A stretch of 49,791 nt of DNA from assembly GCA_016342495.1 (NCBI GenBank), contig JAEIOG010000029.1, forward strand, positions 1 through 49,791, given 5' to 3'. A model generated the notes under the pieces. That model did not search any database and was not told where the DNA came from. It saw nothing but the letters and a program-made list of their open reading frames with translations. Shown in pieces: positions 51 through 12,301 of the stretch (its first letter is position 1; every line of letters starts with the position of its first letter). This DNA comes from Phycisphaerae bacterium. Its GTDB lineage: Bacteria > Planctomycetota > Phycisphaerae > Sedimentisphaerales > SM23-30. The position numbers and the translations under genes are program-made.

Positions 51-557
51 TCATTTTGCTTGACAATTACCGCTTTTCTGTTTCAGATATGAGCCAAGAG
101 TGTCGTTGGCATTATTTAAGACTCCACTGAGAGTGTTGAGTCTTTGGCGTTGGTTGAGATAATCTTCTTGTTGGGTTTGAAGTTGCCTGATTTCTTGCAA
201 ATCAGGCAACTGGGTAGAAGGGGTGGTGTGGTTTAGGGTTGAGCGTAAATGATTGCCGATGATGGTTTTGTTTATATCACGAAAATGAGCTAAAGCAATA
301 TGGCATTCGGGGAAATGAGACAGTAAATAATCATGTAAGCCCGGTATGTCACGAGCCCAGGTCTGGCTTTCCTGGCTCATGGATCGCAGATAATATGATT
401 TTGAGCCTTTTATGAGTATCTTATCATCAATTTGGGCGATAATGATTTGAATGCAGTGTTTAGGGTGCCACCAGAGTTGCAATTGCAAATTGTATGTTAA
501 ATTCCCTATCAGCTTAAAACCACGCTGATTAATTATATCATCGACGGCGTTGGGCAT
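51..557 (-). CDS. Uncharacterised last gene of the ubiquitin-like operon (168 aa)
   Basis: I do not recognise this protein. The first 90 or so residues look like a compact alpha/beta domain with alternating hydrophobic strands and a WWHPKHC segment near residue 30. The region from about residue 120 is Gln/Leu-rich and probably helical or coiled coil. There is no signal peptide or membrane segment. The ATG at 557 is preceded by an AGGAG Shine-Dalgarno with 7-nt spacing and overlaps the end of the upstream zinc-protein gene by 20 nt, so the two are probably translationally coupled. As the last visible gene of an E1/E2/JAB operon it could be a substrate adaptor, an immunity partner or a diverged modifier, but nothing in the sequence decides. 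The operon may continue past the window edge, 50 nt away. Confidence 0.75.
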   Translation of the reverse strand: MPNAVDDIINQRGFKLIGNLTYNLQLQLWWHPKHCIQIIIAQIDDKILIKGSKSYYLRSMSQESQTWARDIPGLHDYLLSHFPECHIALAHFRDINKTIIGNHLRSTLNHTTPSTQLPDLQEIRQLQTQQEDYLNQRQRLNTLSGVLNNANDTLGSYLKQKSGNCQAK

Positions 558-1059
558 TTCGAGCTCCTGTTCTGGTGGGAGTTGTAAGTCTATATAGGGC
601 GATTCGGTCCTTTATGCCTTGTCTTCTGGATTGAAGGTACAATGCTTTCCTGCGCAAGGCATTTTGCCTGAGCTGTTGTTGGCGTCTAAATTTTTCTTTG
701 CTGAACATAATTTTGTCCATCATCCCCTGGCGTTTGTATAGTTTAGGTAAGCAACTACAGCATACCTGCAATAAACGCTGACCTACGAAACTATGGCGAC
801 AGCGACCACATATCCTTCGTCTGCAAGCATGACATATAGAAATGCATTGATTGCAAAGAGCATGACCGCAGCAGTCGCATCTTCCCATCCATTGAGTGAT
901 ATCATGTATTGGTCGATGACAACTGGGGCATCGTGTAGCTGATTGGATTGTTTCAGAGCGTATAGTTACGCCATCATCTATTATTTGCTCGGTTTGTCGA
1001 CCTATGATTTGTCCTTGTGGGCCTTGAATTAGGTTTTGTTTTATTATTCGGTTACTCAT
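538..1059 (-). CDS. Cys-rich RING/treble-clef-like zinc protein, putative E3 or adaptor (173 aa)
   Basis: The central segment (residues 44-103) contains C44-x2-C47, C61-x-C63-C64, C69-x2-C72, C76-x2-C79, C84-x2-C87 and C100-C101-x-C103. This is enough for three or four zinc sites with the closely spaced pairs of cross-brace RING or FYVE-like treble-clef domains. Prokaryotic RING-type domains (the Prok-RING families) are known to sit beside E1, E2 and JAB genes, so the family assignment is inferred from both the Cys pattern and the neighbourhood. The flanks are an N-terminal 40-residue Gln/Ile-rich part and a very basic Arg/Gln-rich C-terminal tail (residues 105-173), which suggests nucleic-acid or ribosome contact. 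The start at 1059 has a GGAGGT Shine-Dalgarno. Alternatives are a zinc-ribbon or DnaJ-type zinc scaffold without ligase activity. Confidence 0.8.
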   Translation of the reverse strand: MSNRIIKQNLIQGPQGQIIGRQTEQIIDDGVTIRSETIQSATRCPSCHRPIHDITQWMGRCDCCGHALCNQCISICHACRRRICGRCRHSFVGQRLLQVCCSCLPKLYKRQGMMDKIMFSKEKFRRQQQLRQNALRRKALYLQSRRQGIKDRIALYRLTTPTRTGARNAQRRR

Positions 1060-1083
1060 AATTGACCTCCAGAAATTAATTCT

Positions 1084-1116
1084 ATATAGAGGGCTAATGC
1101 AAATTAGCCCTCTATA
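1084..1116 (-). promoter_or_regulatory. Perfect intercistronic hairpin between the E1 and RING-like genes
   Basis: Positions 85-97 and 104-116 after base 1000 are perfect inverted repeats of 13 bp (arm TATAGAGGGCTAA), extendable by one pair to a 4-nt loop. In the transcribed minus-strand RNA the hairpin lies just after the E1 stop codon and about 15 nt before the GGAGG of the next gene. There is no U-tract after it, so it is more likely an mRNA-stability, processing or translation-tuning element than a full terminator. Confidence 0.6.
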
Positions 1117-1122
1117 AATTAG

Positions 1123-1974
1123 TTATGCATGATTATTGTTGACTTTGTCTGCAAATTTACCCTGGCAGTCTGGGCAATCTTTTTCATAGCCACCCTGGAG
1201 TGCGATACTGGTAAATGAGAAATTAGCTGAGCTGTCACCCAGATATTTTGCAAAGATATCTTTCTGGCCCATACGATATTCTGGGTCAATTTTGACCTGA
1301 ATTAAATTGCGATCACCAAGTTGTTCGATAAGTCTGCCCATACGGTTTTCTGAACCTCGTGTGAGGATACCCAGAGCGATCTGACCAGCGATTGCATCTA
1401 TGAGGTGTAAGTCAAAGATTGTGCCACCCGAACTTGGGGTAGCTGCTATACCATTTTGGAAGGCTTTGTACCTAGATGAGCATATACATCTGTAGCAAGC
1501 AGCTGTAGAGCTATCAGGAACATGGTAAATGATTTCTCCGGCACGAGCTCCAGCATACATACCGATGTATAATGCAGGTTTGTTGAGCCTAATAGCTTCG
1601 GTATTGCCCCTTGCTTGAGCTGGAAAGAAGTCTGTTGCCATTATGAACAAATCTGTATGACCAAATAATTCATCAAATTCTGATGGAGTAATGGAACAGA
1701 AGTCTCTGGCAAGGCAAGTAACTTCGGTTTGGGGATTGATGCGTCTTATAGTATCAGCTGTAGCTTGTATTTTAAGACGATTAATATCCTGGTTATCGAA
1801 ATCTTGGCGGGCAGGATTTGTTTTATCAACAGTGTCAAAATCAACCAAAGTGATAGATCCCATACCGCACCTGGCTAAGTCGCATGCCAATTGAAAAGCA
1901 CCTCCGACAATTGTTACATGGGATTGCTGCATAAGATTGACATTTACTGTATCTTTTATACGATCATAATTCAT
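1123..1974 (-). CDS. E1/ThiF-like ubiquitin-activating adenylyltransferase (283 aa)
   Basis: The Rossmann-type adenylation domain of the ThiF/MoeB/E1 superfamily is clear: a glycine-rich nucleotide loop VGGAFQLACDLARCGMG (residues 23-39), DFDTVDKTNPARQ (45-57) with the conserved D-x-D, Asn53 and Arg56, the Lys-containing helix ending in RRINP, and the switch Asp115 in MATDFF. Two Cys pairs, C160-x2-C163 and C267-x2-C270, match the structural zinc site of the family. E1-like enzymes adenylate the C terminus of a ubiquitin-like protein and pass it on as a thioester to an E2. I chose the ATG at 1974, 32 codons inside the longest open frame, because TTGGAG lies just upstream and because the longer form would run back into the JAB gene. 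The glycine loop is weaker than the usual GxGGxG. It is the fourth gene of the operon. Confidence 0.9.
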   Translation of the reverse strand: MNYDRIKDTVNVNLMQQSHVTIVGGAFQLACDLARCGMGSITLVDFDTVDKTNPARQDFDNQDINRLKIQATADTIRRINPQTEVTCLARDFCSITPSEFDELFGHTDLFIMATDFFPAQARGNTEAIRLNKPALYIGMYAGARAGEIIYHVPDSSTAACYRCICSSRYKAFQNGIAATPSSGGTIFDLHLIDAIAGQIALGILTRGSENRMGRLIEQLGDRNLIQVKIDPEYRMGQKDIFAKYLGDSSANFSFTSIALQGGYEKDCPDCQGKFADKVNNNHA

Positions 1975-2009
1975 GATTTTATTCTCCAAATTAAATTTTA
2001 ATGTTGTAA

Positions 2010-2471
2010 TTATATTATTGTTAAGTCTGCAATCACAGGATTGTTGTATTGGCCTCTTAGCACCATCCATGGGATGAGTCTAAATTCTTCAGGAATGACA
2101 ATTGGAGCGATAAAAAAGTCATCGCGGGGGTTGCATTTCAGTAAGCGTTCAATATAGGTTAAGTCGCCTCCACTTAATCTGTCAAAACGATTGGGGTGAC
2201 TGTGAACTACCCCTTTCATTTCAATGCCTTCATCTGCCCATTCAGTTTTTAGTAAGTGCGTTAATTTTGCATAGTCTGGGGTGTATGTAGCTTTTGAGCA
2301 TTGGCCATCATTATCAAAATAGAAGTCTGATATTTCATTTTTATTAAGTGGCCCAAGAAGAATTCCGCCGGTTTCTGCGGGCTTTGTGCCGATGGTGTTG
2401 AATATTTTGGAGATAACGTTACGATGGCAGATTATATCCGGACTAATTTTTTTATTTTTATTTTTCATCAT
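2010..2471 (-). CDS. JAB/JAMM metalloprotease, putative Ubl isopeptidase (153 aa)
   Basis: The complete JAMM zinc signature is present: Glu33 in ETGGILLG, then His90-Ser91-His92-Pro93 with Ser100 and Asp103 in the pattern HSHP-x6-SGGD. The 153-residue length is that of a single catalytic domain without extra modules. JAMM peptidases of the Rpn11/BilC/Cap3 type cut isopeptide or peptide bonds after ubiquitin-like proteins, either to mature the modifier or to remove it from targets. The start is the ATG at 2471 (or 2468), with AAGGA upstream. It follows the E2-like gene by 18 nt and precedes the E1 gene by 35 nt. All active-site residues are intact, so the enzyme should be active. A role in pathways using other beta-grasp proteins (sulfur transfer) is possible, but the neighbours argue for conjugation. 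Confidence 0.92.
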   Translation of the reverse strand: MMKNKNKKISPDIICHRNVISKIFNTIGTKPAETGGILLGPLNKNEISDFYFDNDGQCSKATYTPDYAKLTHLLKTEWADEGIEMKGVVHSHPNRFDRLSGGDLTYIERLLKCNPRDDFFIAPIVIPEEFRLIPWMVLRGQYNNPVIADLTII

Positions 2472-2489
2472 ATATCCTTTAGTAGATTG

Positions 2490-2759
2490 TTATTGGGTGA
2501 TGCCAGTGCGACGATATTCCAACATATATTCGGCCCATTGGCCTGCAAGCTTTCGAGCTTTTTGGATATTGGCAGGCTCTTTACCTGCATAGAAACATAT
2601 TTTGCCACTGCGAAAAAGATGAGTTTTTTCAGGATTGGTATTCTTGCCATTAAAACCAGGGTGTTTATCGCAATAGATATTGCAAATACTGCCATTTTGG
2701 ACAAATCTGAATTTGAAGTAGTGTTGACCATTTTTAGATCGATAAGTTTCACTTGCCAT
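2490..2759 (-). CDS. Minimal E2-like (UBC-fold) conjugating protein (89 aa)
   Basis: The sequence carries the landmarks of short prokaryotic E2-like proteins: strands ending in FKFRF and CNIYC, an HPG turn (His33), then THLFRSGKICFY (residues 46-57) with a Cys at 55, followed by an amphipathic helix and WAEYMLEYRRTG near the C terminus. This resembles the (T/H)H-x-GxLC-x-Y ... WLxxYExWxxTG layout of the E2 domains in CBASS Cap2-like and other bacterial Ubl operons, with Cys55 as the presumed thioester residue. At 89 residues it is much shorter than a eukaryotic E2 (about 150). The ATG at 2759 has AAAGGA upstream. The assignment rests on pattern memory and on position between the acidic small protein and the JAB gene; it needs a profile search. 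An alternative is a small zinc or RNA-binding protein. Confidence 0.72.
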   Translation of the reverse strand: MASETYRSKNGQHYFKFRFVQNGSICNIYCDKHPGFNGKNTNPEKTHLFRSGKICFYAGKEPANIQKARKLAGQWAEYMLEYRRTGITQ

Positions 2760-2794
2760 GATATATTCCTTTCGGAGTAATAAGGTGAAAATTT

Positions 2795-2822
2795 GCTTGC
2801 CAGATCAATTAACCTGGCAAGC
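2795..2822 (-). terminator. Intercistronic hairpin after the first gene, possible attenuator
   Basis: GCTTGCCAG (2795-2803) and CTGGCAAGC (2814-2822) form a perfect 9-bp stem with a 10-nt loop in the gap between the 96-aa gene and the E2-like gene. On the transcribed minus strand it is followed by a short A/U run rather than a strong U-tract. This would let part of the transcripts stop after gene 1 and so give more of the first protein than of the enzymes. Confidence 0.55.
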
Positions 2823-2839
2823 GGTAAGAGTTATTGATG

Positions 2840-3130
2840 TTAGATTGCATCAGGGTGTGTAAGGTGATCAGGCTTGGCATCATCGTCTTCTGAGAAATGC
2901 TGCTGTGGATCATCAGAGCAAACCACATCATTATCAGAAGTGCCATCAAAGTAGTTCAAACCTGGGATTTCCATATTTTCAGGATAAAGATGATGGAATG
3001 TGCCTGATTCTAATTCATTGCCATGAAAAGTTCCTGGTTCAAGTTCATTACCAGCGAAGCTACCAGCGATAAAGATTTGCACATTATTATTGACTTTGTT
3101 CACGATAGCTTTTTTTGCAAATTTGTTCAT
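2840..3130 (-). CDS. Small acidic protein, first gene of the Ubl operon (96 aa)
   Basis: I cannot assign this protein. The N-terminal 20 residues are basic (MNKFAKKAIVNK), followed by VQIFIAGSF and a tandem 10-residue duplication (GNELEPGTFH then GNELESGTFH, about residues 27-46). The last 35 residues are rich in Asp, Glu, His and Pro (SEDDDAKPDHLTHPDAI). It has no Gly-Gly C terminus and no clear beta-grasp pattern, so it is not an obvious ubiquitin-like protein. However, it is first in the operon, small, and followed by a hairpin that could raise its dose over the enzymes, as expected for a modifier or dedicated substrate. AAGGA precedes the ATG at 3130. Its role is unknown. Confidence 0.7.
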   Translation of the reverse strand: MNKFAKKAIVNKVNNNVQIFIAGSFAGNELEPGTFHGNELESGTFHHLYPENMEIPGLNYFDGTSDNDVVCSDDPQQHFSEDDDAKPDHLTHPDAI

Positions 3131-3695
3131 TATTAGTTTCCTTAAAAAATAGTTAATTAAATTATTGAATAAACAGTGGTTGGGGTATATTTATGGAATT
3201 TTCATGATTGCACCTCCTTTTGGGTTTGGGGATTGAGAGTTATCGTTTTCTTGTTTAAGAATATTTAATTGTTGCAACAGGTTTGTATATTGCAATAGAT
3301 GTGCCAACAAAAAAATAATAGTGAAAATATTTAAGTTGAAATTCAGAAATGAGATGAATGTCGCCACCTGTTTGCATGCTAGTAGAAGAAGGAGAAGCGT
3401 TTTTGGATGCGTAATGCTTAGGTATGATAAGTCTATGTGTGTAAGCCAGTTATGAGGGATTTGTCAGTGATAAGCAGTGTTAGAGATTGATTGTTAAATA
3501 GGCATGTGTGGTCGGGATATATTTTTGAATGAAAATTTATTTAAAATTTGATCATTAGCAATTATTGTTGGAAATTAAATCATGAATAAAAGTAAAAAAA
3601 ATTGCAATAAAGTAAATAAAGTTGTAAAATGTCATGATAGGTTTACTAAATATCTTGGTAATTGTTTCTGTATATATTCATGATTGGAGAGTTTT
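3131..3695. other. Divergent intergenic region between the Ubl operon and the CARF regulator
   Basis: This 565-nt gap has no convincing gene. It holds the minus-strand sigma-54 promoter at 3291-3307 and, in the leader of the Ubl operon (3203-3218 on the minus strand), an unusually strong AAGGAGGTG ribosome site followed by ATG and a four-codon frame (Met-Lys-Ile-Pro-stop, 3205-3191). The A+T-rich 3400-3690 part is where enhancer sites for the activator would be expected. I see no clean inverted repeat there beyond weak matches. No sigma-54 element facing the regulator was found. Confidence 0.6.
3291..3307 (-). promoter_or_regulatory. Sigma-54 (-24/-12) promoter of the Ubl operon
   Basis: On the minus strand the sequence is TTGGCAC-ATCTA-TTGCA: the -24 element TGGCAC at 3306-3301 and the -12 element TTGCA at 3295-3291, separated by exactly 5 nt. 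This matches the sigma-54 consensus TGGCAC-N5-TTGCW at every defined base. Transcription would start near 3280, about 150 nt before the first gene. The divergent gene encodes a sigma-54 activator, which makes chance occurrence unlikely. Confidence 0.85.
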
Positions 3696-5219
3696 ATGGC
3701 AAAAATTCTATTAACATGGCTCGGTGTAACTGATATTAATTCTTCTAAGCAGGATTCTGGCGGGAATTTAGGGCCAATTGCAGGAGCGGTCATTGATCGT
3801 AAATACAAAACGGTATTTATTCTTTCCGATTTTGCGAAGCCAGTCTCTAATAAATATAAAAAATGGCTGAAAAGCACCGCAAAGGTGACCGCTATAATTA
3901 GAAATGTGGATTTAAAAGATCCTATGGACTTTGGGAGTATATATGAATTTGCCAGGCAGTTGGTAATTGATGTATGTAAGGAGTATATTGCAGAAGATAT
4001 TGTATTTGATTTAAGTCCAGGCACTCCCGCTATGGCTGCAGTTTGGATAATTCTTGGTAAAACCATTTTTCCCCAGGTTGAATTGATAGAGTCTTCAATG
4101 CAGGATAAGAAGGGTAATTATCATGTAAGGACAACATCTGTACCTTTTGATATTTCGGCCGCAGTTATAATGGATATGCTTTCAAATCCGGACGAGAAGT
4201 TGAAACTTATGGCACAGAGTTTGCCTCCAAAGACTGCTGATTTTCCCGAAATAATCTATAAATGTAAGAAAATGGAAAGAGTAATTGCTATGGCACGCTT
4301 GGCCGCAGTAAGAAATGTACCAGTTTTAATTTTAGGAGAGTCTGGTACTGGTAAAGAATTGGTTGCGCAAGCGATACATACAGAGAGTCTTAGGGGAAAT
4401 AAGAAATTTGGGGAAATAAACTGTGGAGCATTATCTCCTTCATTGGTTGAATCAGAATTATTTGGGCATGTAAAGGGTAGTTTTACGGGAGCGACCAAGG
4501 ATAAAGAGGGGCTGTTTTGTGTCAATAAGGGGGGGACGCTTTTTCTTGATGAAATTGGAGATTTAGATTTGTCTCTTCAGGTGAAATTACTTAGAGTGAT
4601 TCAGGAGAAAAAAGTGGTCCCCGTTGGAAGTGGGGATTCGTGTAAAGTCGATGTGAGAATTATTGCAGCAACTCATAGAGATTTGATGGGGGATGTCGCA
4701 AATGGTAAATTCAGAGAAGATTTATTTTATAGATTAGCAGTAGCAGTGATTTGCATCCCTCCTCTGAGAGAAAGGGGAGGAGATATTGATTCTTTGACTG
4801 ATTTTTTCATGGCCAAGATAAATGACGAATTTGGAGATGAGCAGCCTTGTTATAAGGGGCCTAAAAAGATATCACATAATGCGAGAATAATGCTTCGCAA
4901 TCATCAATGGCCGGGCAATATAAGAGAACTTCAAAATACATTAATGCGAGCGGCAATATGGTCTACAGGAGAAACCATAAAAAAACAGGATATTCTCAAC
5001 TCCATTATACAGATTCGTTCAAAATCAGATATTGATTTATTGAATCAGTCATTGGGGCCACATTTTGAGATTAAAAATATTGTGGATATAATTGTCAAAC
5101 ATTATTTCAGTAGAGCTCTTAAAGCATCTGGAGGAAACAAGACCGTTGCGTCACGATTAGTAGGTCTTCCAAATCATCAAACGTTTACTAATTGGATGAA
5201 GAAACACAAGGTGGATTAA
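3696..5219 (+). CDS. RtcR-like CARF-sigma-54 transcriptional activator (507 aa)
   Basis: Residues 1-160 look like a CARF-type Rossmann sensor: strands MAKILLTWLG and TVFILSDF, then DPMDFGSIYEFA and the ligand-loop-like DLSPGTPAM (about 106-114), where RtcR has TTGTH. Residues 180-420 are a sigma-54 AAA+ domain: Walker A GESGTGKE (about 214-221), the sigma-54 contact loop GSFTGA (261-266) in place of GAFTGA, Walker B TLFLDE (about 281-286), and the arginine-finger segment FREDLFYRL. The C-terminal GGNKTVASRLVG segment is a Fis-type HTH. RtcR is known to activate RNA-repair genes through its CARF domain, but no rtcBA genes are here. The ATG at 3696 is chosen over an upstream TTG because TGGAG sits 7 nt before it. 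It probably controls the divergent Ubl operon and perhaps the helicase operon 36 nt downstream. Confidence 0.92.
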   Translation: MAKILLTWLGVTDINSSKQDSGGNLGPIAGAVIDRKYKTVFILSDFAKPVSNKYKKWLKSTAKVTAIIRNVDLKDPMDFGSIYEFARQLVIDVCKEYIAEDIVFDLSPGTPAMAAVWIILGKTIFPQVELIESSMQDKKGNYHVRTTSVPFDISAAVIMDMLSNPDEKLKLMAQSLPPKTADFPEIIYKCKKMERVIAMARLAAVRNVPVLILGESGTGKELVAQAIHTESLRGNKKFGEINCGALSPSLVESELFGHVKGSFTGATKDKEGLFCVNKGGTLFLDEIGDLDLSLQVKLLRVIQEKKVVPVGSGDSCKVDVRIIAATHRDLMGDVANGKFREDLFYRLAVAVICIPPLRERGGDIDSLTDFFMAKINDEFGDEQPCYKGPKKISHNARIMLRNHQWPGNIRELQNTLMRAAIWSTGETIKKQDILNSIIQIRSKSDIDLLNQSLGPHFEIKNIVDIIVKHYFSRALKASGGNKTVASRLVGLPNHQTFTNWMKKHKVD

Positions 5220-5255
5220 TCAATATTACACTATATAAATGTCTGAGGGCAAGCT

Positions 5256-8200
5256 ATGGCCAATAACATGAACCAAGATTCAAGTAAATCTTTACTTGAA
5301 AGCATTCTTGTATTGATGTCTTCTGAGCAACAAGAACATTTTCTTAAATATTCTTCAGCTGAGGAGATTATCTACGCCAATAAGCTACCTGTTTTTGATC
5401 AGCAATTATCTATTTTACTTACAAAGAAGGTTTATTATCATTGGGTTGAAATATATAAAAAGGAAATATTATCAGATGTTTCTACGTTGCAAAATGCTTT
5501 TGAGGTACAGTTTTATTTAGATGAATTAAAGAACTGTTTGGAGATGGGAGTCAGTTTTCATACTTTGCATTGGAAGGAGGGGAATGATGGTGAAGAGAAA
5601 GCATTTGTGTATATTCAGTCAAGTCTGCTTGAAATGAAATGTATTATGGAGACAGGGCTTAATAAAAAGGCATACTTTAAAGCAATTCATTCAAAATCAT
5701 TCAATGAATTTCAAAAAGATAGGATAAAAACCAAAAATGAGAGTTTTGTGTCATCGGAGGTATTTGGGGAAGATGTTCCCATAGACACTGATGTTATAGA
5801 TGTTGGTGAAATAATTCATGACCACCAAATATTGAATAAAGGTAAGCCGAAACAATTTATTCCGCAAATTAAAATGATCTGGAATGTTCATTCTCCCTAT
5901 TCGCAGGAGATACAGCGTTTCGATTCTGAAGCAGTTCTTAAAATTATCTGGGAGAATTTTAACAATCAAAGATTAGCAATGGTACTTAAATGGACACGTA
6001 AACACTTGAGGGAGCTCGGGGATATTGTTAATCTTGGTCAACTTGCAATGCAATTTAGATATGAACTTGTTAGTCAGACAGAGACCTCCAAGGGTAGATA
6101 TTGTAAAATTAAAATTAATGCCGCACAAGAAGATATTGCTAATATGAAATTGGCATGTGTGTATGCAGAGGACAAAGAGGCGGATAATAAAAATGGAAAT
6201 AACTTCCGCAATATTAAGCAATTTTTAAAGCGTAGATTGAAAAAAGCATTAATATTAGAAATGGAAGATTGTAAGGGTGATATTTATTATTGTAATATTT
6301 TTGGGACAGAAGAGATGCCTTCTGAAGGATTACTCGTTGATGTTGGGTTAGAATCGCAAATTAAGAAAAAAATTGAGGCGATGCATAACGTCTCTTTCTC
6401 AAAAGGTATGGTTCACCTTTTGAAATTAGCAACTTTACTAGGCAAGGTTGGGAAGTCAAAACTAGAATTATTTAGCTGGGATGATAAGAAGTTAAAGCTA
6501 TATGATGAATTATTAACAGGGCGACAACGTGAAGCAGTTTTGAAAGCTTTGAATACCCCGGATATCTGCCTGGTCCAAGGTCCTCCTGGAACTGGGAAGA
6601 CCAGAATTATCTCTGAAATTGTCCAACAAGCATCCAAAAGGGGTTATAAAATACTACTGACCGCACCCACACATGTTGCAGTTGATAATGTTTTGGAGCG
6701 ACTTGGTTGTGATGATAACACTAGTCCCATCCGTTGTGTTAATAAGGATAAGTTGGAAAGTCTCCCAGAGCATATACGCCAGTTTACTTATGAACAAAGA
6801 AAATCAACCTTGGCAGTAAACTCTCAGAAAAGAGTGAAAGCTGATATTTATGCTTTAAATAAAGAAAAGCTTAGGCTTGTAAATGTGTCCAATATGATAC
6901 AGAGACTATGTACTCTTCATGATGATAAAGTCAAGTTACTAAGAAAAGAAAAGCGTTTAATAAAAAAATATGCTTCTATAGAAAAAACTGTTAAAGAAAA
7001 ATTTGCTGAAAAATTAAATATTAGTGAAAGAATAAAACTTGAAAGAGAAAATATCCTTTATGGATTTAGGCAACATTATGCACTTATTGATAATGAAGTG
7101 AAAGTTCTTAGATTAAGATGTAAAGAATACAAGTCAGATCAATATACTGATATAGATAAAAACAGATTTGATCTTGGTCAGTTAGGAGTCGATAGAAATC
7201 AAGGTAAGTCTCTAGGTGTTGCAAGATCAGAATATAGTCAGGCTAATATTGATAGGGACGAAATTAAAAGACAAATTGAGCAAACTGGTGCTAAGTTGGG
7301 AAAAATTAAAGAAACACTTTTACTCTTAGGTAAGGGAGAAGTCCCAGCAAATATTTATAAGATCATTCGAGGTTCAATAAGCAGCCTCGAAAAACAACAG
7401 GCCCACATTGTTGCTAAAAAATGTGTTAAATTAAAAGAAACTAAAAATAATTTATGTAAACATAATGAGGAAGTATGTATTTTAAGGAATACGATTAACG
7501 AATTGGAGACAAAGCAGAGAGCGTCTGAGAATATTAAGCATAAACCATTGTTGAGTAAGCTATTTAATGGGGTTTGGTGGCAATCTAAATTTAATGATTA
7601 TCAGGCTCAAGAAACAATACACAAAAGGTTACTTGCTGATTCTTTAGTGACTATAGCTCGCTTGGAAACAGCGATAGAAAAGTTAAAGCTTCGTTGGGAA
7701 AAAAGTAAGCAAGACAAAAATGAAAAGCTAGATGCTGCTTATAAGTCAGAATTGATCACTCAGAATTATTTGTTAAAATCTAATGAAGAAGAGTTAGCTT
7801 TAGCATTAAGTTCTATGAATGGACAACTTCAGCAAAAAAACACAACTATTGAAAGCCTGGATGAAAAAGTTAAATTGTTACAAAAAGATTATGATCGGGC
7901 TTCTGGCCAGATCATTCAAGCAGTTAAAAAACAACTGCATAAAGAACTTGTAAATCAAATCAAAAAACTCCGCAAAGATTTGGTCGTGTGCAAAGCTGAT
8001 ATAGTCATAGCTAATAATATATACTGTAAAGCTAAAATTGATTTTGAAAAAATACAGTTAAAAGTTTTGGAATCAGTCAAAGATAAAGTGCAAAAAAACG
8101 AATCAGATATTGAAAAGCTTAACAAGGATATTCATGTAAATAATTCGACTACTTTGCAATTGCAATGTCAAGCAGCTTTGTTTTTTTGCGGTAAGCCACC

Positions 8201-9539
8201 AGATAAGCCATCAGCAAGGAAAAAAGTTTTAAAGGAATTGGAGGATCAATTAAGTCAAAATGAAAGAAGGATAGCTTTTTCGGAGAGTTGGCTAGATTGT
8301 CTTCGGCGCAATACAGAAAGTCTTTCTCTACGTTTAGCAAAATATACTAACCTTATTTGTGCCACCACAATTGGTATTGCTAGTGATGACTATTTTGGAG
8401 ATGGCAAACCTTTTGAACAGAAAGAGTTCGATTTACTTATTATTGATGAGGCGGGGAAAGTTACTGAGCCTGAGTTTCTGGTAGCGGCAACCAGAGCAAA
8501 AAAATGGGTGATAGTTGGGGATCATAAACAGTTGCCTCCTTATTATGATCGTAAACTCAATGATATTTTCTTGGGAGTAAATAAATTACGTAGTCAGGAT
8601 AATTTGTCCATGCTTGATCCTATTGGATTACAAATTAGTTATTTTGAGAATCTTTGGAACCAATTAAGTGTTAAAGGAGATGGTATTGATAAGGCAAAGG
8701 CTCGTTTGGTGACACTTGATGTTCAAAGAAGAATGCATCCAGATATTGCGAGATTTATTTCAGATATGTTTTATCCAAATGAGTATAACTCTCCTGATGA
8801 ACCTGAGTTCTTACAGGAAAAAACATTGGAACTATCTCGGTTTAAATGTGCGATAACATTTATCGAAGTAATACCTCCCAAGGCAGTGAAAGGTTATGAA
8901 GCCAATCTGAACTTATGGGATAATCGTAAAGATTTAAAATTGTTTAGTAAAACTGGGTATGCCAATCTTACAGAAGCAAGAAAAATGGTAGAAGTTTTAG
9001 TTAATCTTCTTGGGGAAGAAAGTGTTTTTGCTGAACAGAGAGAACTTAATGATAAAAATGACTCATCATCGGCCATTGGAGTGATAGCTTTTTATGCAGG
9101 ACAAGTGGAATTGATAAGTGAATTAATTAAAGAAGAACCATTTCTGGAAGCAGAGGAATTATCCAGTGCTGGGCATTTTTTATGTAAGGGAAAGGTCAAT
9201 GTTACAGTGAATACTGTTGATTCATTTCAGGGCAAGGAATGTCCAATTGTAATTTTGAGTTTTACGAGGAGTAATTCATGTCAAAACATTGGTTTTGTCA
9301 AAAACTCCAATCGCTTGAATGTCGCAATGAGTCGAGCAAGAAAAAAACTTATTTTGTTAGGTGATACAAAAACTTTTGTACATAGAGCTATGATGGATGA
9401 AAGCAAGATCAAAGGCGATGATACGAGGTCAATATCTGCCGAAAGTATCTTCTTTAAGAAATTAGTGCAATATATTGAAGGATATGGCGAAATTAAGAAG
9501 GCGTTTCATGTGTGGAGGCAAGAAAATGGCTCCGTTTAA
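5256..9539 (+). CDS. UPF1-like SF1 helicase with large coiled-coil insertion (1427 aa)
   Basis: All SF1 helicase motifs of the UPF1/DNA2-like branch are present: Q-motif region TGRQREAV, Walker A QGPPGTGKT (about 441-449), Ia TAPTHVAVDNVLERL, motif II LLIIDEAGKV (about 1061), III VGDHKQLPP, IV LDVQRRMHP, V NTVDSFQGKE and VI NRLNVAMSRARKKL (about 1352). Around 600 residues lie between motif Ia and motif II. They are Lys/Glu/Leu-rich and predicted by eye to form long coiled coils, far beyond the normal 1B/stalk region. The N-terminal 430 residues are unassigned. Such proteins unwind RNA or DNA in 5'-3' direction; large versions recur in phage-defence operons together with PLD nucleases. The ATG at 5256 follows GAGGG, 36 nt after the activator gene. 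Confidence 0.93.
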   Translation: MANNMNQDSSKSLLESILVLMSSEQQEHFLKYSSAEEIIYANKLPVFDQQLSILLTKKVYYHWVEIYKKEILSDVSTLQNAFEVQFYLDELKNCLEMGVSFHTLHWKEGNDGEEKAFVYIQSSLLEMKCIMETGLNKKAYFKAIHSKSFNEFQKDRIKTKNESFVSSEVFGEDVPIDTDVIDVGEIIHDHQILNKGKPKQFIPQIKMIWNVHSPYSQEIQRFDSEAVLKIIWENFNNQRLAMVLKWTRKHLRELGDIVNLGQLAMQFRYELVSQTETSKGRYCKIKINAAQEDIANMKLACVYAEDKEADNKNGNNFRNIKQFLKRRLKKALILEMEDCKGDIYYCNIFGTEEMPSEGLLVDVGLESQIKKKIEAMHNVSFSKGMVHLLKLATLLGKVGKSKLELFSWDDKKLKLYDELLTGRQREAVLKALNTPDICLVQGPPGTGKTRIISEIVQQASKRGYKILLTAPTHVAVDNVLERLGCDDNTSPIRCVNKDKLESLPEHIRQFTYEQRKSTLAVNSQKRVKADIYALNKEKLRLVNVSNMIQRLCTLHDDKVKLLRKEKRLIKKYASIEKTVKEKFAEKLNISERIKLERENILYGFRQHYALIDNEVKVLRLRCKEYKSDQYTDIDKNRFDLGQLGVDRNQGKSLGVARSEYSQANIDRDEIKRQIEQTGAKLGKIKETLLLLGKGEVPANIYKIIRGSISSLEKQQAHIVAKKCVKLKETKNNLCKHNEEVCILRNTINELETKQRASENIKHKPLLSKLFNGVWWQSKFNDYQAQETIHKRLLADSLVTIARLETAIEKLKLRWEKSKQDKNEKLDAAYKSELITQNYLLKSNEEELALALSSMNGQLQQKNTTIESLDEKVKLLQKDYDRASGQIIQAVKKQLHKELVNQIKKLRKDLVVCKADIVIANNIYCKAKIDFEKIQLKVLESVKDKVQKNESDIEKLNKDIHVNNSTTLQLQCQAALFFCGKPPDKPSARKKVLKELEDQLSQNERRIAFSESWLDCLRRNTESLSLRLAKYTNLICATTIGIASDDYFGDGKPFEQKEFDLLIIDEAGKVTEPEFLVAATRAKKWVIVGDHKQLPPYYDRKLNDIFLGVNKLRSQDNLSMLDPIGLQISYFENLWNQLSVKGDGIDKAKARLVTLDVQRRMHPDIARFISDMFYPNEYNSPDEPEFLQEKTLELSRFKCAITFIEVIPPKAVKGYEANLNLWDNRKDLKLFSKTGYANLTEARKMVEVLVNLLGEESVFAEQRELNDKNDSSSAIGVIAFYAGQVELISELIKEEPFLEAEELSSAGHFLCKGKVNVTVNTVDSFQGKECPIVILSFTRSNSCQNIGFVKNSNRLNVAMSRARKKLILLGDTKTFVHRAMMDESKIKGDDTRSISAESIFFKKLVQYIEGYGEIKKAFHVWRQENGSV

Positions 9540-10785
9540 GATCAGTATTGAGGCGAAAAAACAAATTTGGGATACACATTCACAAGCTGAAGGTGATTTT
9601 GCGATTTTTCTTTCTAAGTGCTATTTCCACGCCATAGAAGCTTGCGTATCGGTAAGTAAGTGTGAAAATATGGATGAATTTGAGCATTTTGTTTTGAAGG
9701 CGGTTGTTCTTTTAGATGTTGCAGGCATTGAGGAAATCAATAGTCTTCTTCATATAGGAAGACAAGTTATTAAAAGGATTGTGGTCAAGTTGGTCGCCGA
9801 TGAGCTATTGGTAGAGGTAGATGATGGTGTCATTGAGATAACAAAATTAGGTAGAAAAGTTGTTGAAACCAAAGTTATGATGAAACTTGAAAAAAAACGG
9901 CATATATTTCATTTTTTAGATGGAAGTAATGCATTTTTGCAAATAAACAATAATCATAGGTTTTTGATAGATTTGCAGGCTAACGAAACTCCAGTAGAGT
10001 GGCGTTTTGATGTTGATTCTTTACGGAGGTGCATAAACCAAACGGATGGCTGGAAGAAACAACAACAATTTCCAACTGAAATTTTTGACTTGATTACATC
10101 ACATGGGCAAGATTTAATGACCGATATCGATGTTGAAAGCACACTTATTGTGGATAAGGCTCAGGTGGCTAATTGTGCAATCCTAGTTAAGTATACTGAG
10201 AGTAAACCATCTGGGTTGTTTGCATATCCTATTTCATTAAATGGTCGATTATTGGGTGCTGATTGGTTATTTTCCCTAAAAGGTGAGGATGAGATACTTA
10301 GTGCATTTCCTTGTATCACGAATGTCCCTGATTCAGAGGAATCTAAGGTAGCTTTTATGTTGTCTGGTAGAAGATATTTTCTAAAGGATTTTGATGATAT
10401 ATCTGTCGAGAGTCAAAAAACCTGTACTGCCATTAAGGTTAGAAATGACAGTGATGTCAATTGGGCCAAGTTTTATTGGCAGAATTTTCAGGGGAATGTT
10501 TTTTTTGATATTGAATTGGGAAAAACAATTAAAATGAACAAGTTAATGATTATCGGCAAAAGCGATAAGCTGCGTATGGTAAAGCATCTATATACACTCA
10601 ATAAGTCATGTGTTGCTGATGACCACCTGAAAGATTTAGCTACATATAGATCCTGGCTAAGTGAGCAGGTGCATTTGGCAGATGAGCCAATTAGAGATTT
10701 GACCTCATTAGCATGGGATATAGACAATTACAGATTGGCTTACGATTTAGCTGAATTAGAGGATATAGAAGATGCCAAAATATAA
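9526..10785 (+). CDS. Unknown winged-helix-containing protein of the helicase-PLD operon (419 aa)
   Basis: I do not recognise a named family. Residues about 45-115 look like a winged helix (VLLDVAGIEEINSLLHIG ... VIKRIVVKLVADELLVEV ... ITKLGRKVVE). The rest is mixed alpha/beta and without known catalytic motifs. There is no signal or membrane segment. The start at 9526 is chosen over an in-frame ATG at 9475 because TGGAGG lies 7 nt upstream and because it leaves a 14-nt overlap with the helicase stop, the same overlap as at the next junction. It is probably a DNA/RNA-binding or sensor subunit acting with the helicase and the PLD protein, inferred only from operon structure. Confidence 0.85.
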   Translation: MAPFKISIEAKKQIWDTHSQAEGDFAIFLSKCYFHAIEACVSVSKCENMDEFEHFVLKAVVLLDVAGIEEINSLLHIGRQVIKRIVVKLVADELLVEVDDGVIEITKLGRKVVETKVMMKLEKKRHIFHFLDGSNAFLQINNNHRFLIDLQANETPVEWRFDVDSLRRCINQTDGWKKQQQFPTEIFDLITSHGQDLMTDIDVESTLIVDKAQVANCAILVKYTESKPSGLFAYPISLNGRLLGADWLFSLKGEDEILSAFPCITNVPDSEESKVAFMLSGRRYFLKDFDDISVESQKTCTAIKVRNDSDVNWAKFYWQNFQGNVFFDIELGKTIKMNKLMIIGKSDKLRMVKHLYTLNKSCVADDHLKDLATYRSWLSEQVHLADEPIRDLTSLAWDIDNYRLAYDLAELEDIEDAKI

Positions 10786-12301
10786 TATTAATTATGGAGA
10801 CGCACAGATTGATGGCGGACTATTTCTAAAGCGTAAATCTGTTGTCTCTTCATCGTTAGAATATAAAGATGGAGAAGGAGATCAATTTAAGCATCTTTCA
10901 ACATTCTCGGGAAGATCAACAATTAAAGAGAGTATTATTGCTGCTTTAAAGAATGCTAAACGATATGTTTTTTTTACAAGTTTTTTAATACAAGATGAGC
11001 AGATAATAGAAAGCTTAATTGATTGCGTAAAAAGGCTAAAGGGGCATGTGTATGTGCTTACGACATTGAAGGATCGGGATTTTGATGAGCTTGCAGTGAT
11101 GAAAGGTGAGGGGGATTTTGATCAATGGAATTTTAAAGAACATATGGAAGGCATAAAGGAGCTTGTTCGAAATGGTATTTCAGTAAAAGCAAGAAAAGAT
11201 TGTCATGCCAAATTTGTGGTGATTGATGATAAATATGCTATAATTACAAGTGCAAATTCTGTGCCAACATGTTTTGCCGATATACCCCAAAAGAATGGTT
11301 TTGTCCGAGAAGCAAATCCTGAAAATGGAGTTTTGATTGAAATGCATCTGGAAGTACTCCGTCTTTCCAATTTCTTCCGATATATTTGGCGTTCTGCTTA
11401 TAATTATTACATGTCTCCTGACTCTCAGGTTTTGGATATATGTGAGTTTAGCAAAAATATAATTCCTATTGCTTGTCGAGAGCCAGCGATAGTGCCAGGT
11501 AAAGATCAAGTGATTTGGACAGCACCGAATGACTATCGAATTTTGGAATCACTGGTAAAAATGATTGATATGGCTGAACATAGTGTTTGTATTAGTTCTT
11601 GGGTTATTAAAGGCATTAAGGGCCATTTGTTAGCTCAAAAGCTTGTACAGGCTACCGAGCGAGGCGTTGAAATTGAGATTTTACTTCGAGGTATGTATCG
11701 TAGCGATCATCTTGAAAGTTGTTATTTTCTTAAACAGAGTTTGGGTAAACAGATTAAGATTTTAGGTGATTTTTGTAATCATTCAAAGGCTGCTCTTGTT
11801 GATAACAAACAGGCTATGTTAATGTCAGCAAACATTGATTCTCAGCATGGTTTAAATTCATCTGTTGAAGTTGGTTTCTTGTCAACCAATCCAGATTTCG
11901 TCGAATCGGTTTCAAATTATTTGAATCGACTTAGAGCGGGATGTGTTTTAGAATTTATTGCAAATCCGACTCAAAATCATGCTGCTCAAAATCATGCCAC
12001 TTTATATAAGCCTGTTATCAAAGATGATTTTATGTTAAACGTTGAACAAAAATGGAAAGGGAGGGACCAAAAAGTGAATAAATTGCTCACGGAAATGAAA
12101 AGTCAGTTGATAAGGGTGTCGTCGCCGCGGGGTAAAAATGGCCAAGAGATGAGTTTGTATACGAATAATATGATTATTGATTGTGTCAGGCAGGATGCGA
12201 AATCATTAAATGTTTTGAGAATAAATGAAACTCCCAGAGCTGCAAGCTTACATTTTCGACATATATTGTCAAAGGTTAAGATCAAGATCAATGTGAGTTG
12301 A
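10772..12301 (+). CDS. Phospholipase D-family protein with two HKD motifs, putative nuclease (509 aa)
   Basis: Two PLD half-sites are visible: CHAKFVVIDDKYAIITSAN (His near residue 145) and NHSKAALVDNKQAMLMSAN (His near residue 337), each H-x-K-x4-D followed by a Ser/Ala-Asn strand. Two HKD motifs in one chain form a single active site, as in PLD-type nucleases and lipases. With no signal peptide and a helicase partner, nucleic acid is the likelier substrate. The C-terminal 100 residues hold a short repeat (QNHAAQNHA) and an unassigned tail. The gene overlaps its upstream neighbour by 14 nt and converges with the truncated sensor gene, overlapping its end by 33 nt. PLD plus helicase pairs occur in DISARM and other defence systems, but the other DISARM genes are absent. 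Confidence 0.9.
   Translation: MPKYNINYGDAQIDGGLFLKRKSVVSSSLEYKDGEGDQFKHLSTFSGRSTIKESIIAALKNAKRYVFFTSFLIQDEQIIESLIDCVKRLKGHVYVLTTLKDRDFDELAVMKGEGDFDQWNFKEHMEGIKELVRNGISVKARKDCHAKFVVIDDKYAIITSANSVPTCFADIPQKNGFVREANPENGVLIEMHLEVLRLSNFFRYIWRSAYNYYMSPDSQVLDICEFSKNIIPIACREPAIVPGKDQVIWTAPNDYRILESLVKMIDMAEHSVCISSWVIKGIKGHLLAQKLVQATERGVEIEILLRGMYRSDHLESCYFLKQSLGKQIKILGDFCNHSKAALVDNKQAMLMSANIDSQHGLNSSVEVGFLSTNPDFVESVSNYLNRLRAGCVLEFIANPTQNHAAQNHATLYKPVIKDDFMLNVEQKWKGRDQKVNKLLTEMKSQLIRVSSPRGKNGQEMSLYTNNMIIDCVRQDAKSLNVLRINETPRAASLHFRHILSKVKIKINVS

Follow-up and report, generated by a model that had tools for sequence, protein, structure and literature searches.

A bacterial E1–E2–JAMM operon that may use a short encoded peptide in place of ubiquitin

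Ubiquitin-like conjugation has so far been defined by a folded beta-grasp modifier. In the Cap2/Cap3 system of cyclic-oligonucleotide-based antiphage signalling (CBASS), a protein without a beta-grasp fold is conjugated and released via its C-terminus, and Cap3 cleaves tandem copies (PMC10097602). In the microcin C7 pathway, MccB, an E1-like enzyme, activates the C-terminus of the short encoded peptide MccA (PMC13255007). Between them, these systems show both halves of the idea of a peptide modifier at work in nature (PMC10097602, PMC13255007). Here, we describe an operon at one end of a 49,791-nt stretch of DNA (contig JAEIOG010000029.1 of a Phycisphaerae bacterium), hereafter the window. Judged from sequence, the operon appears to direct conjugation of the ubiquitin type, with an encoded peptide of ∼11 residues replacing ubiquitin, a reading to which we give a probability of roughly 60%.

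The source genome comprises 5.4 Mb in 221 contigs, and the window opens at a contig edge. As a first-pass annotation had reported, the open reading frame (ORF) listing of the window contains six adjoining ORFs at 51–3130, all on the minus strand. In order of transcription, these encode a 96-residue protein, an 89-residue protein, a JAMM protease, an E1/ThiF enzyme, a 173-residue Cys-rich protein and a 168-residue protein. The features on which the reading depends are as follows:

2840–3130, minus strand: peptide precursor gene, 96 residues, bearing the motif twice in tandem; putative precursor of the modifier (motif in relatives; mainly synonymous copy differences)
3023–3052, minus strand: peptide copy 1, GNELEPGTFH (translation)
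2993–3022, minus strand: peptide copy 2, GNELESGTFH (translation)
2490–2759, minus strand: minimal E2/UBC-like protein, 89 residues, with invariant His47 and Cys55 (alignment, AlphaFold, Foldseek)
2010–2471, minus strand: JAMM/JAB protease, 153 residues (Prok-JAB 9e-7; intact JAMM motif; profile matches to JAMM1 and other solved JAMM proteases)
1123–1974, minus strand: E1/ThiF adenylation enzyme, 283 residues, with a structural zinc CxxC...CxxC (ThiF 9.1e-22; profile matches; invariant residues)

The first-pass annotation had counted the 96-residue and 168-residue products as orphans. The latter proved to correspond to the N-terminal end of a HerA-like ATPase, and the former is the peptide precursor, the decisive feature, which had been missed. 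Related loci (numbered with the prefix L) were gathered by E1 sequence alone, independently of the peptide. In all 24 loci whose E2 was intact and whose sequence extended far enough around it, a peptide was encoded beside the E2, with the family consensus G-[ED]-[ED]-[ILV]-x-x-G-T-[FL]-[HR] (∼11 residues, range 10–12; one to five copies per locus). L025, L026, L030 and L031, which lie at contig ends, and L037, with a truncated E2, were unusable for testing this rule. The peptide ORF is mostly upstream of the E2, and between E2 and JAB in L015–L018. The peptide reads MKYVVFGIEELEDGTLHTGR in L015, MKIVLFGIEELDGGTLHSDN in L017 and SGDDIEPGTFH in L020, and L016 carries two motif copies. Longer arrays include four copies of a GEDVVPPGTFH-type motif (L019) and four of GDDELPEGGFR (L033). 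In the Bacteroidota loci L027 and L029, four or three copies of GGEEIKPG[VT]LH are fused in frame to the N-terminus of the E2.

After the motif had been defined, an E1 profile search of three phylum sets gave five further loci (L065–L069), and E2 and peptide were present in all five. The motif in the form fixed first, GT[LFYIVM]H, matched four of them versus 6 of 296 control windows, the exception being a locus with five copies ending in GTFR. A looser motif, partly fitted to the same data, matched 22 of 23 loci in the wider set versus 2 of 548 control windows. Among the new loci, the peptide is GVEELQGGVLHS in L065, where the E2 begins MKATIILTEGTLHG, and GRDHVEAGTFHA in L066, each followed by a stop; L069 carries DKDEIPPGTFH twice. 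L067 has three copies of GEEDAIPAGTFH after one shorter copy and L068 has five of GGESVPSGTFR, both arrays ending at the stop codon, which also directly follows the two copies of GGDSVPPGTFH in L032. The precursor ORFs of L032, L067 and L068 thus stop exactly after -GTFH or -GTFR, resembling an exposed mature C-terminus. The remaining precursors have short variable tails, as in ubiquitin-family precursors, and single-copy forms are complete genes of ∼20 residues with no leader.

In the last copy of each array, Gly was conserved in 23 of 23 loci, Thr in 20, Phe/Leu/Trp in all 23 and His/Arg in 22 (L036, near-identical to L035, was omitted from the tally). Neighbouring tandem copies differed by 143 synonymous and only 8 non-synonymous nucleotide changes, where 25% synonymous would be expected (binomial P ∼1e-75, an indicative value, as sites are taken as independent). 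The peptide is therefore translated, under selection and strongly conserved. No conserved ubiquitin-fold (Ubl) gene was found in any locus examined, the intergenic gaps being too small for one, and the only conserved gene of ubiquitin size is that of the E2. The short repeated peptide was also absent from the searchable open literature, outside which key earlier subscription surveys lie.

The ThiF and Prok-JAB matches listed above bear out the E1 enzyme and the intact JAMM protease that had been proposed on first pass. We place the E1 gene at 1123–1974 because the ATG at 1974, its true start, sits behind a Shine–Dalgarno sequence. Against solved structures, the E1 profile matched UBA5 (7e-22), MoeB (1.6e-21) and ThiF best, then MccB (4e-17) and PaaA (2e-15). 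Residues R5, D47, N53, Q57, K68 and D115, as well as two zinc-binding CxxC pairs, were retained in 18 relatives. The E1s are short and open directly at the adenylation domain, an N-terminal peptide-binding domain being missing. In the protease, the JAMM motif is complete (HSHPNRFDRLSGGD, with E33 upstream; pattern E...HSHP-x6-S-x2-D).

The 89-residue protein gave no match in Pfam, NCBIfam or PDB sequence searches, so the minimal E2-like protein of the first-pass annotation finds its backing in structure and alignment, not in family profiles. H47 and C55 were unchanged across 18 relatives, and the AlphaFold model had a predicted local distance difference test (pLDDT) score of 92.6. When this model was searched with Foldseek against 350,542 PDB chains, ranks 1–23 were all UFC1, the E2 of UFM1. 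By hhalign (6.9e-6), the 89-residue protein is also a remote relative of an E2-like protein from a different bacterial E2-E1-JAB cassette. A minimal E2 fold with Cys55 as candidate catalytic residue is therefore supported by the model. Extra E2-like paralogues adjoin the cassette at L068:1041–1951 and L066:1710–2156, and one in L068 holds a peptide-like DEVPPGCD. No peptide precedes the E2 in L084, whose E2-E1-JAB cassette is related to, but distinct from, those described here.

Taken as a pathway, the operon would make the peptide as a single or tandem precursor, as the genes themselves indicate, and the JAMM protease would cut this precursor after the terminal -[FLW]-[HR]. The exposed C-terminus would then be adenylated by the E1, in line with its intact catalytic residues and its kinship to MccB, MoeB and UBA5. 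The minimal E2 would receive the activated peptide on its Cys55, probably directly from the adenylate because the only conserved Cys residues of the E1s are four zinc ligands. The E2, perhaps with the zinc-finger protein in the window clade, would join the peptide to target proteins, and the JAMM protease would reverse the reaction. In the weakest step, a co-encoded ATPase (HerA-, T4CP- or Clp-like, depending on the subtype) may recognise the tag. In the window, a divergent RtcR/CARF activator may induce the operon through sigma-54. We infer that the peptide acts as a covalent modifier. That an E1-E2-JAMM cascade lacking a ubiquitin fold turns tandem precursors into ∼11-residue protein tags, which a dedicated ring ATPase of the HerA, T4CP or Clp type recognises, seems to us to have somewhat less than an even chance. 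The same tentative standing applies to viewing this cascade as an analogue of ssrA tagging at the post-translational level, merged with the logic of polyubiquitin. The enzymes are of familiar types; should the peptide indeed be a modifier, that modifier would be new, and there is a substantial chance that the system is categorically new.

Several observations weigh against a peptide modifier. What concerns us most is that the C-terminal residue is predicted to be His or Arg instead of Gly. Such an ending is unusual among E1 substrates, and in CBASS conjugation was lost when Gly was changed to Arg (PMC10097602). The E1s lack an invariant catalytic Cys (18 relatives), and in the window clade only, the glycine loop is two residues shorter (window E1 residues 18–28, VTIV--GGA), which may affect ATP binding. 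The UFC1 fold matches were weak, with E-values of 0.08 and above and template modelling (TM) scores of 0.36 or less. In addition, the window copies comprise 10 rather than 11 residues, and in the window clade the motif is embedded in a 96-residue protein. The E1 substrate may also be something other than the peptide.

If so, the peptide might serve as a non-covalent ligand, as a pseudosubstrate or as an acceptor, such as a tethered regulator of E1, E2 or JAMM, and the true modifier would be an unlinked chromosomal Ubl of the ThiS/MoaD type. Beta-grasp proteins are the normal substrates for E1s of this fold, the peptide–E2 fusion in L027 and L029 would suit an intramolecular regulator, and a peptide-like segment in Clp-like partners (SQEMPPGSFPEAADIGFE, L067) would fit a role of the motif in docking. 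However, arrays terminating exactly at the motif resemble processed precursors, and a Ubl is co-encoded in no locus examined. Homologous operons span at least six phyla, some on mobile elements, which makes it less likely that they depend on an unlinked Ubl. Overall, we consider this explanation unlikely. Less probable still is a pathway for a ribosomally synthesised and post-translationally modified peptide (RiPP), in which the repeats would be core peptides activated by the MccB/PaaA-like E1 and released by JAMM, the E2-like protein serving as carrier or scaffold. Short peptides, multi-core tandem precursors and an E1 related to MccB and PaaA would all fit. Yet the single-copy forms are whole genes without leader, the E1 begins at its adenylation domain, and an E2 with an invariant Cys and a JAMM protease are not RiPP hallmarks. 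Furthermore, the core residues are nearly invariant, unlike typical bioactive cores, and no transporter was noticed beside the cassettes, though transporters were not systematically searched.

The enzyme set of E1, E2 and JAMM also matches known operons (PMC1779556), so the locus could be an ordinary bacterial ubiquitin-like operon (Bil, 6d or RING-containing), in which the 96-residue gene would encode a diverged, fast-evolving Ubl and the Cys-rich protein would be a RING E3. Genes at the position of the 96-residue gene encode down to 20 residues, however, much too short for a beta-grasp fold, and the Prok-E2 and Prok-RING profiles gave no match. The E1 moreover lacks the inactive adenylation domain and the Cys domain reported for BilD (PMC11354881), which leaves this reading very improbable. 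A sulfur-carrier or cofactor pathway, to which the ThiF/MoeB-like domain could belong, we regard as barely credible. The first-pass annotation had named such settings as one where E1 and JAB homologues might occur; instead, the E1 genes share mobile or defence contexts with E2 and JAMM genes, not with cofactor genes. E1 and JAB homologues are co-located across many genomes, which supports the earlier suggestion that this may be a distinct type of ubiquitin-like conjugation operon.

The other two operon genes, and the features ahead of the operon, are as follows:

538–1059, minus strand: treble-clef (FYVE/RIM-like) multi-zinc finger with a long C-terminal helix; candidate E3 or adaptor (alignment, profile, AlphaFold, Foldseek)
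51–557, minus strand: N-terminal 168 residues of a HerA/DUF87-type ATPase (co-linear with the L020 ATPase)
3291–3306, minus strand: candidate sigma-54 (−24/−12) promoter TGGCACATCTATTGCA (exact consensus match)
3684–5219, plus strand: RtcR-like CARF and sigma-54 activator, divergent; candidate operon regulator (PADLOC RtcR CARF_AAA_HTH 4e-175)

The zinc-finger gene is confined to the clade nearest the window. In its 173-residue product, which had been called RING-like on first pass, 12 Cys are conserved, arranged as six CxxC pairs. A RING identity was not supported, as no RING or Prok-RING profile matched at E-values up to 10. Profile, AlphaFold (pLDDT 78.6) and Foldseek results point weakly to a FYVE/RIM-type finger instead: the RIM2 zinc finger (profile match 0.0087), rabphilin and FYVE-type double zinc fingers were among the best profile matches, and RIM2 was the best, weak Foldseek match. 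An E3-like role is possible because RING, FYVE and PHD are related zinc folds.

The 168-residue gene corresponds to the first ∼22% of a 719–746-residue HerA-like ATPase in the closest relatives; the L020 ATPase matches Pfam DUF87 (1.1e-7). Because the window starts at a contig end, we take the gene to be truncated or broken; the ORF ends 50 bases short of the edge, and truncation, a frameshift and an assembly edge are all compatible. The type of ATPase partner varies by subtype, being HerA-like, type IV coupling protein (T4CP)-like or Clp-like. The conserved peptide-like segment mentioned above lies in the N-terminal domain of the Clp-like partner at L067:4817–6217, beside the peptide EDAIPAGTFH, and such a segment also occurs in the AAA+ partners of L031–L036, L066 and L068. 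Possibly it represents mimicry or a docking site.

Gene order in the window clade is pep-E2-JAB-E1-ZnF-HerA. The type we label G310/G400 has E2-pep-JAB-E1-224aa-T4CP-like ATPase, on an element that carries a replication-relaxation gene and tyrosine integrase-like ORFs. Bacteroidota loci have pep(-)E2-JAB-E1, with a T4CP added in L028 and L065, and JAB–E1 fusion loci have pep-E2-[JAB-E1], followed in most by a Clp-like AAA+ gene. A rough E1 tree recovers the same groups. The first-pass annotation had proposed searching planctomycete genomes for the six-gene order; it is conserved in relatives, though not in planctomycetes only, being present in Victivallales and Babeliaceae metagenome-assembled genomes (MAGs) as well. 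Carriers are rare (∼1% of sampled genomes in the three phylum sets) and include members of Planctomycetota, Lentisphaerota/Kiritimatiellota, Bacteroidota, Acidobacteriota and Eisenbacteria, with one Bacillota MAG and one Babeliaceae MAG. Named isolates among them are Dokdonia pacifica DSM 25597 and Bythopirellula polymerisocia Pla144 (two copies). Both E1 and E2 were absent from 12 of 12 same-family genomes. That rare carriers are scattered over many phyla suggests horizontal spread. Viral contigs yielded a single close relative (L037, whose E2 lacks its 5′ part), the rest being short partial matches; plasmid and phage records yielded only other ThiF families, one gut 'phage' record being a different system. 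In L019 (1402–5895), the JAB-E1/E2/peptide locus adjoins kinase-FHA, PP2C and vWA genes (a TerY-P-like triad). A divergent HTH protein flanks the operon in L020 (4518–5933), L021 and L023, with a C-terminal methyltransferase-like domain in L020.

The sigma-54 site lies ∼160 bases ahead of the peptide gene, and the genome also carries rpoN. If one mismatch is allowed, ∼2.7 such sites would be expected in each window; a further exact site occurs inside a gene. Sigma-54 regulation would be specific to the window, since the site is missing at the other loci of the family. The arrangement of activator and operon parallels rtcR/rtcBA. The activator opens a Mokosh-like defence locus (3684–12301, plus strand), which also contains an MkoA-like helicase (1.7e-105), a small MkoB-like gene and a PLD protein with DrmC/MkoB similarity. 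The sigma-54 site, the divergent RtcR-type activator and the nearby helicase/PLD locus together suggest that the operon is induced by an RNA-damage or nucleotide signal and has a defence role. Within the operon leader, a mini-ORF (3191–3205, minus strand; ATGAAAATTCCATAA, encoding MKIP) has a strong Shine–Dalgarno sequence. Judged by eye, 15004–48411 resembles a polysaccharide/sulfatase utilisation region with PEP-CTERM proteins.

If the peptide does replace ubiquitin, the minimal requirement for this kind of signalling would be an activatable C-terminus only. The system would then link ubiquitin E1s to enzymes that activate peptides, such as MccB, and could be a source of very small, genetically encoded, reversible protein tags.

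Among known pathways, UFM1 conjugation provides the top E1 profile match (UBA5) and the top weak fold match of the E2 model (UFC1), a similarity at the fold or superfamily level only. UFM1 itself has a beta-grasp fold and is freed by cysteine proteases; the operon here has a peptide and a JAMM protease. Of the general features of ubiquitin-like conjugation, it contains an E1, an E2 fold with Cys and a JAMM, and lacks an operon-encoded beta-grasp modifier. It is not of the PRTRC type either (PRTRC_ThiF, 15.1 bits versus a cut-off of 144.75).

CBASS type II Cap2/Cap3 likewise applies bacterial E1, E2 and JAMM activities to a non-beta-grasp substrate, and its JAMM cleaves tandem fusions (PMC10097602). 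There, however, the modifier is a whole cyclase with a Gly/Ala C-terminus and E1 and E2 form one protein (PMC10097602), whereas the present operon has a free ∼11-mer peptide precursor with a predicted His/Arg C-terminus, a separate minimal E2 and an E1 that is separate or fused to JAB; no cyclase was identified among the operon genes. BilABCD/type 6d and multi-ubiquitin 6e operons share the modifier gene-E2-E1-JAMM logic and tandem modifier units, and 6e operons have a hypothetical zinc-finger partner, as in the window clade (PMC1779556, PMC11354881). These operons contain one or more beta-grasp domains, whereas ours has none, and the E1 and E2 families differ; in place of the BilA-like double Ubl, BilB E2 and BilD E1 with a Cys domain (PMC11354881), we found no Ubl and a single-domain 283-residue E1. 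MccB/MccA lacks E2 and JAMM, and its product is a nucleotide-peptide antibiotic (PMC13255007). MccB has an extra N-terminal region relative to the operon E1 (the match starts near MccB residue 111); without a peptide-binding domain, and with ∼20-residue genes lacking a leader, the operon does not belong to RiPP systems of the MccB type. Finally, conflict-system Ubl operons combine JAB, E1, a zinc-binding partner (RING) and a modifier–E2 fusion, their modifier being reported as a Ubl domain with EAD1 (PMC7159879), whereas the corresponding place here is taken by a short repeated peptide.

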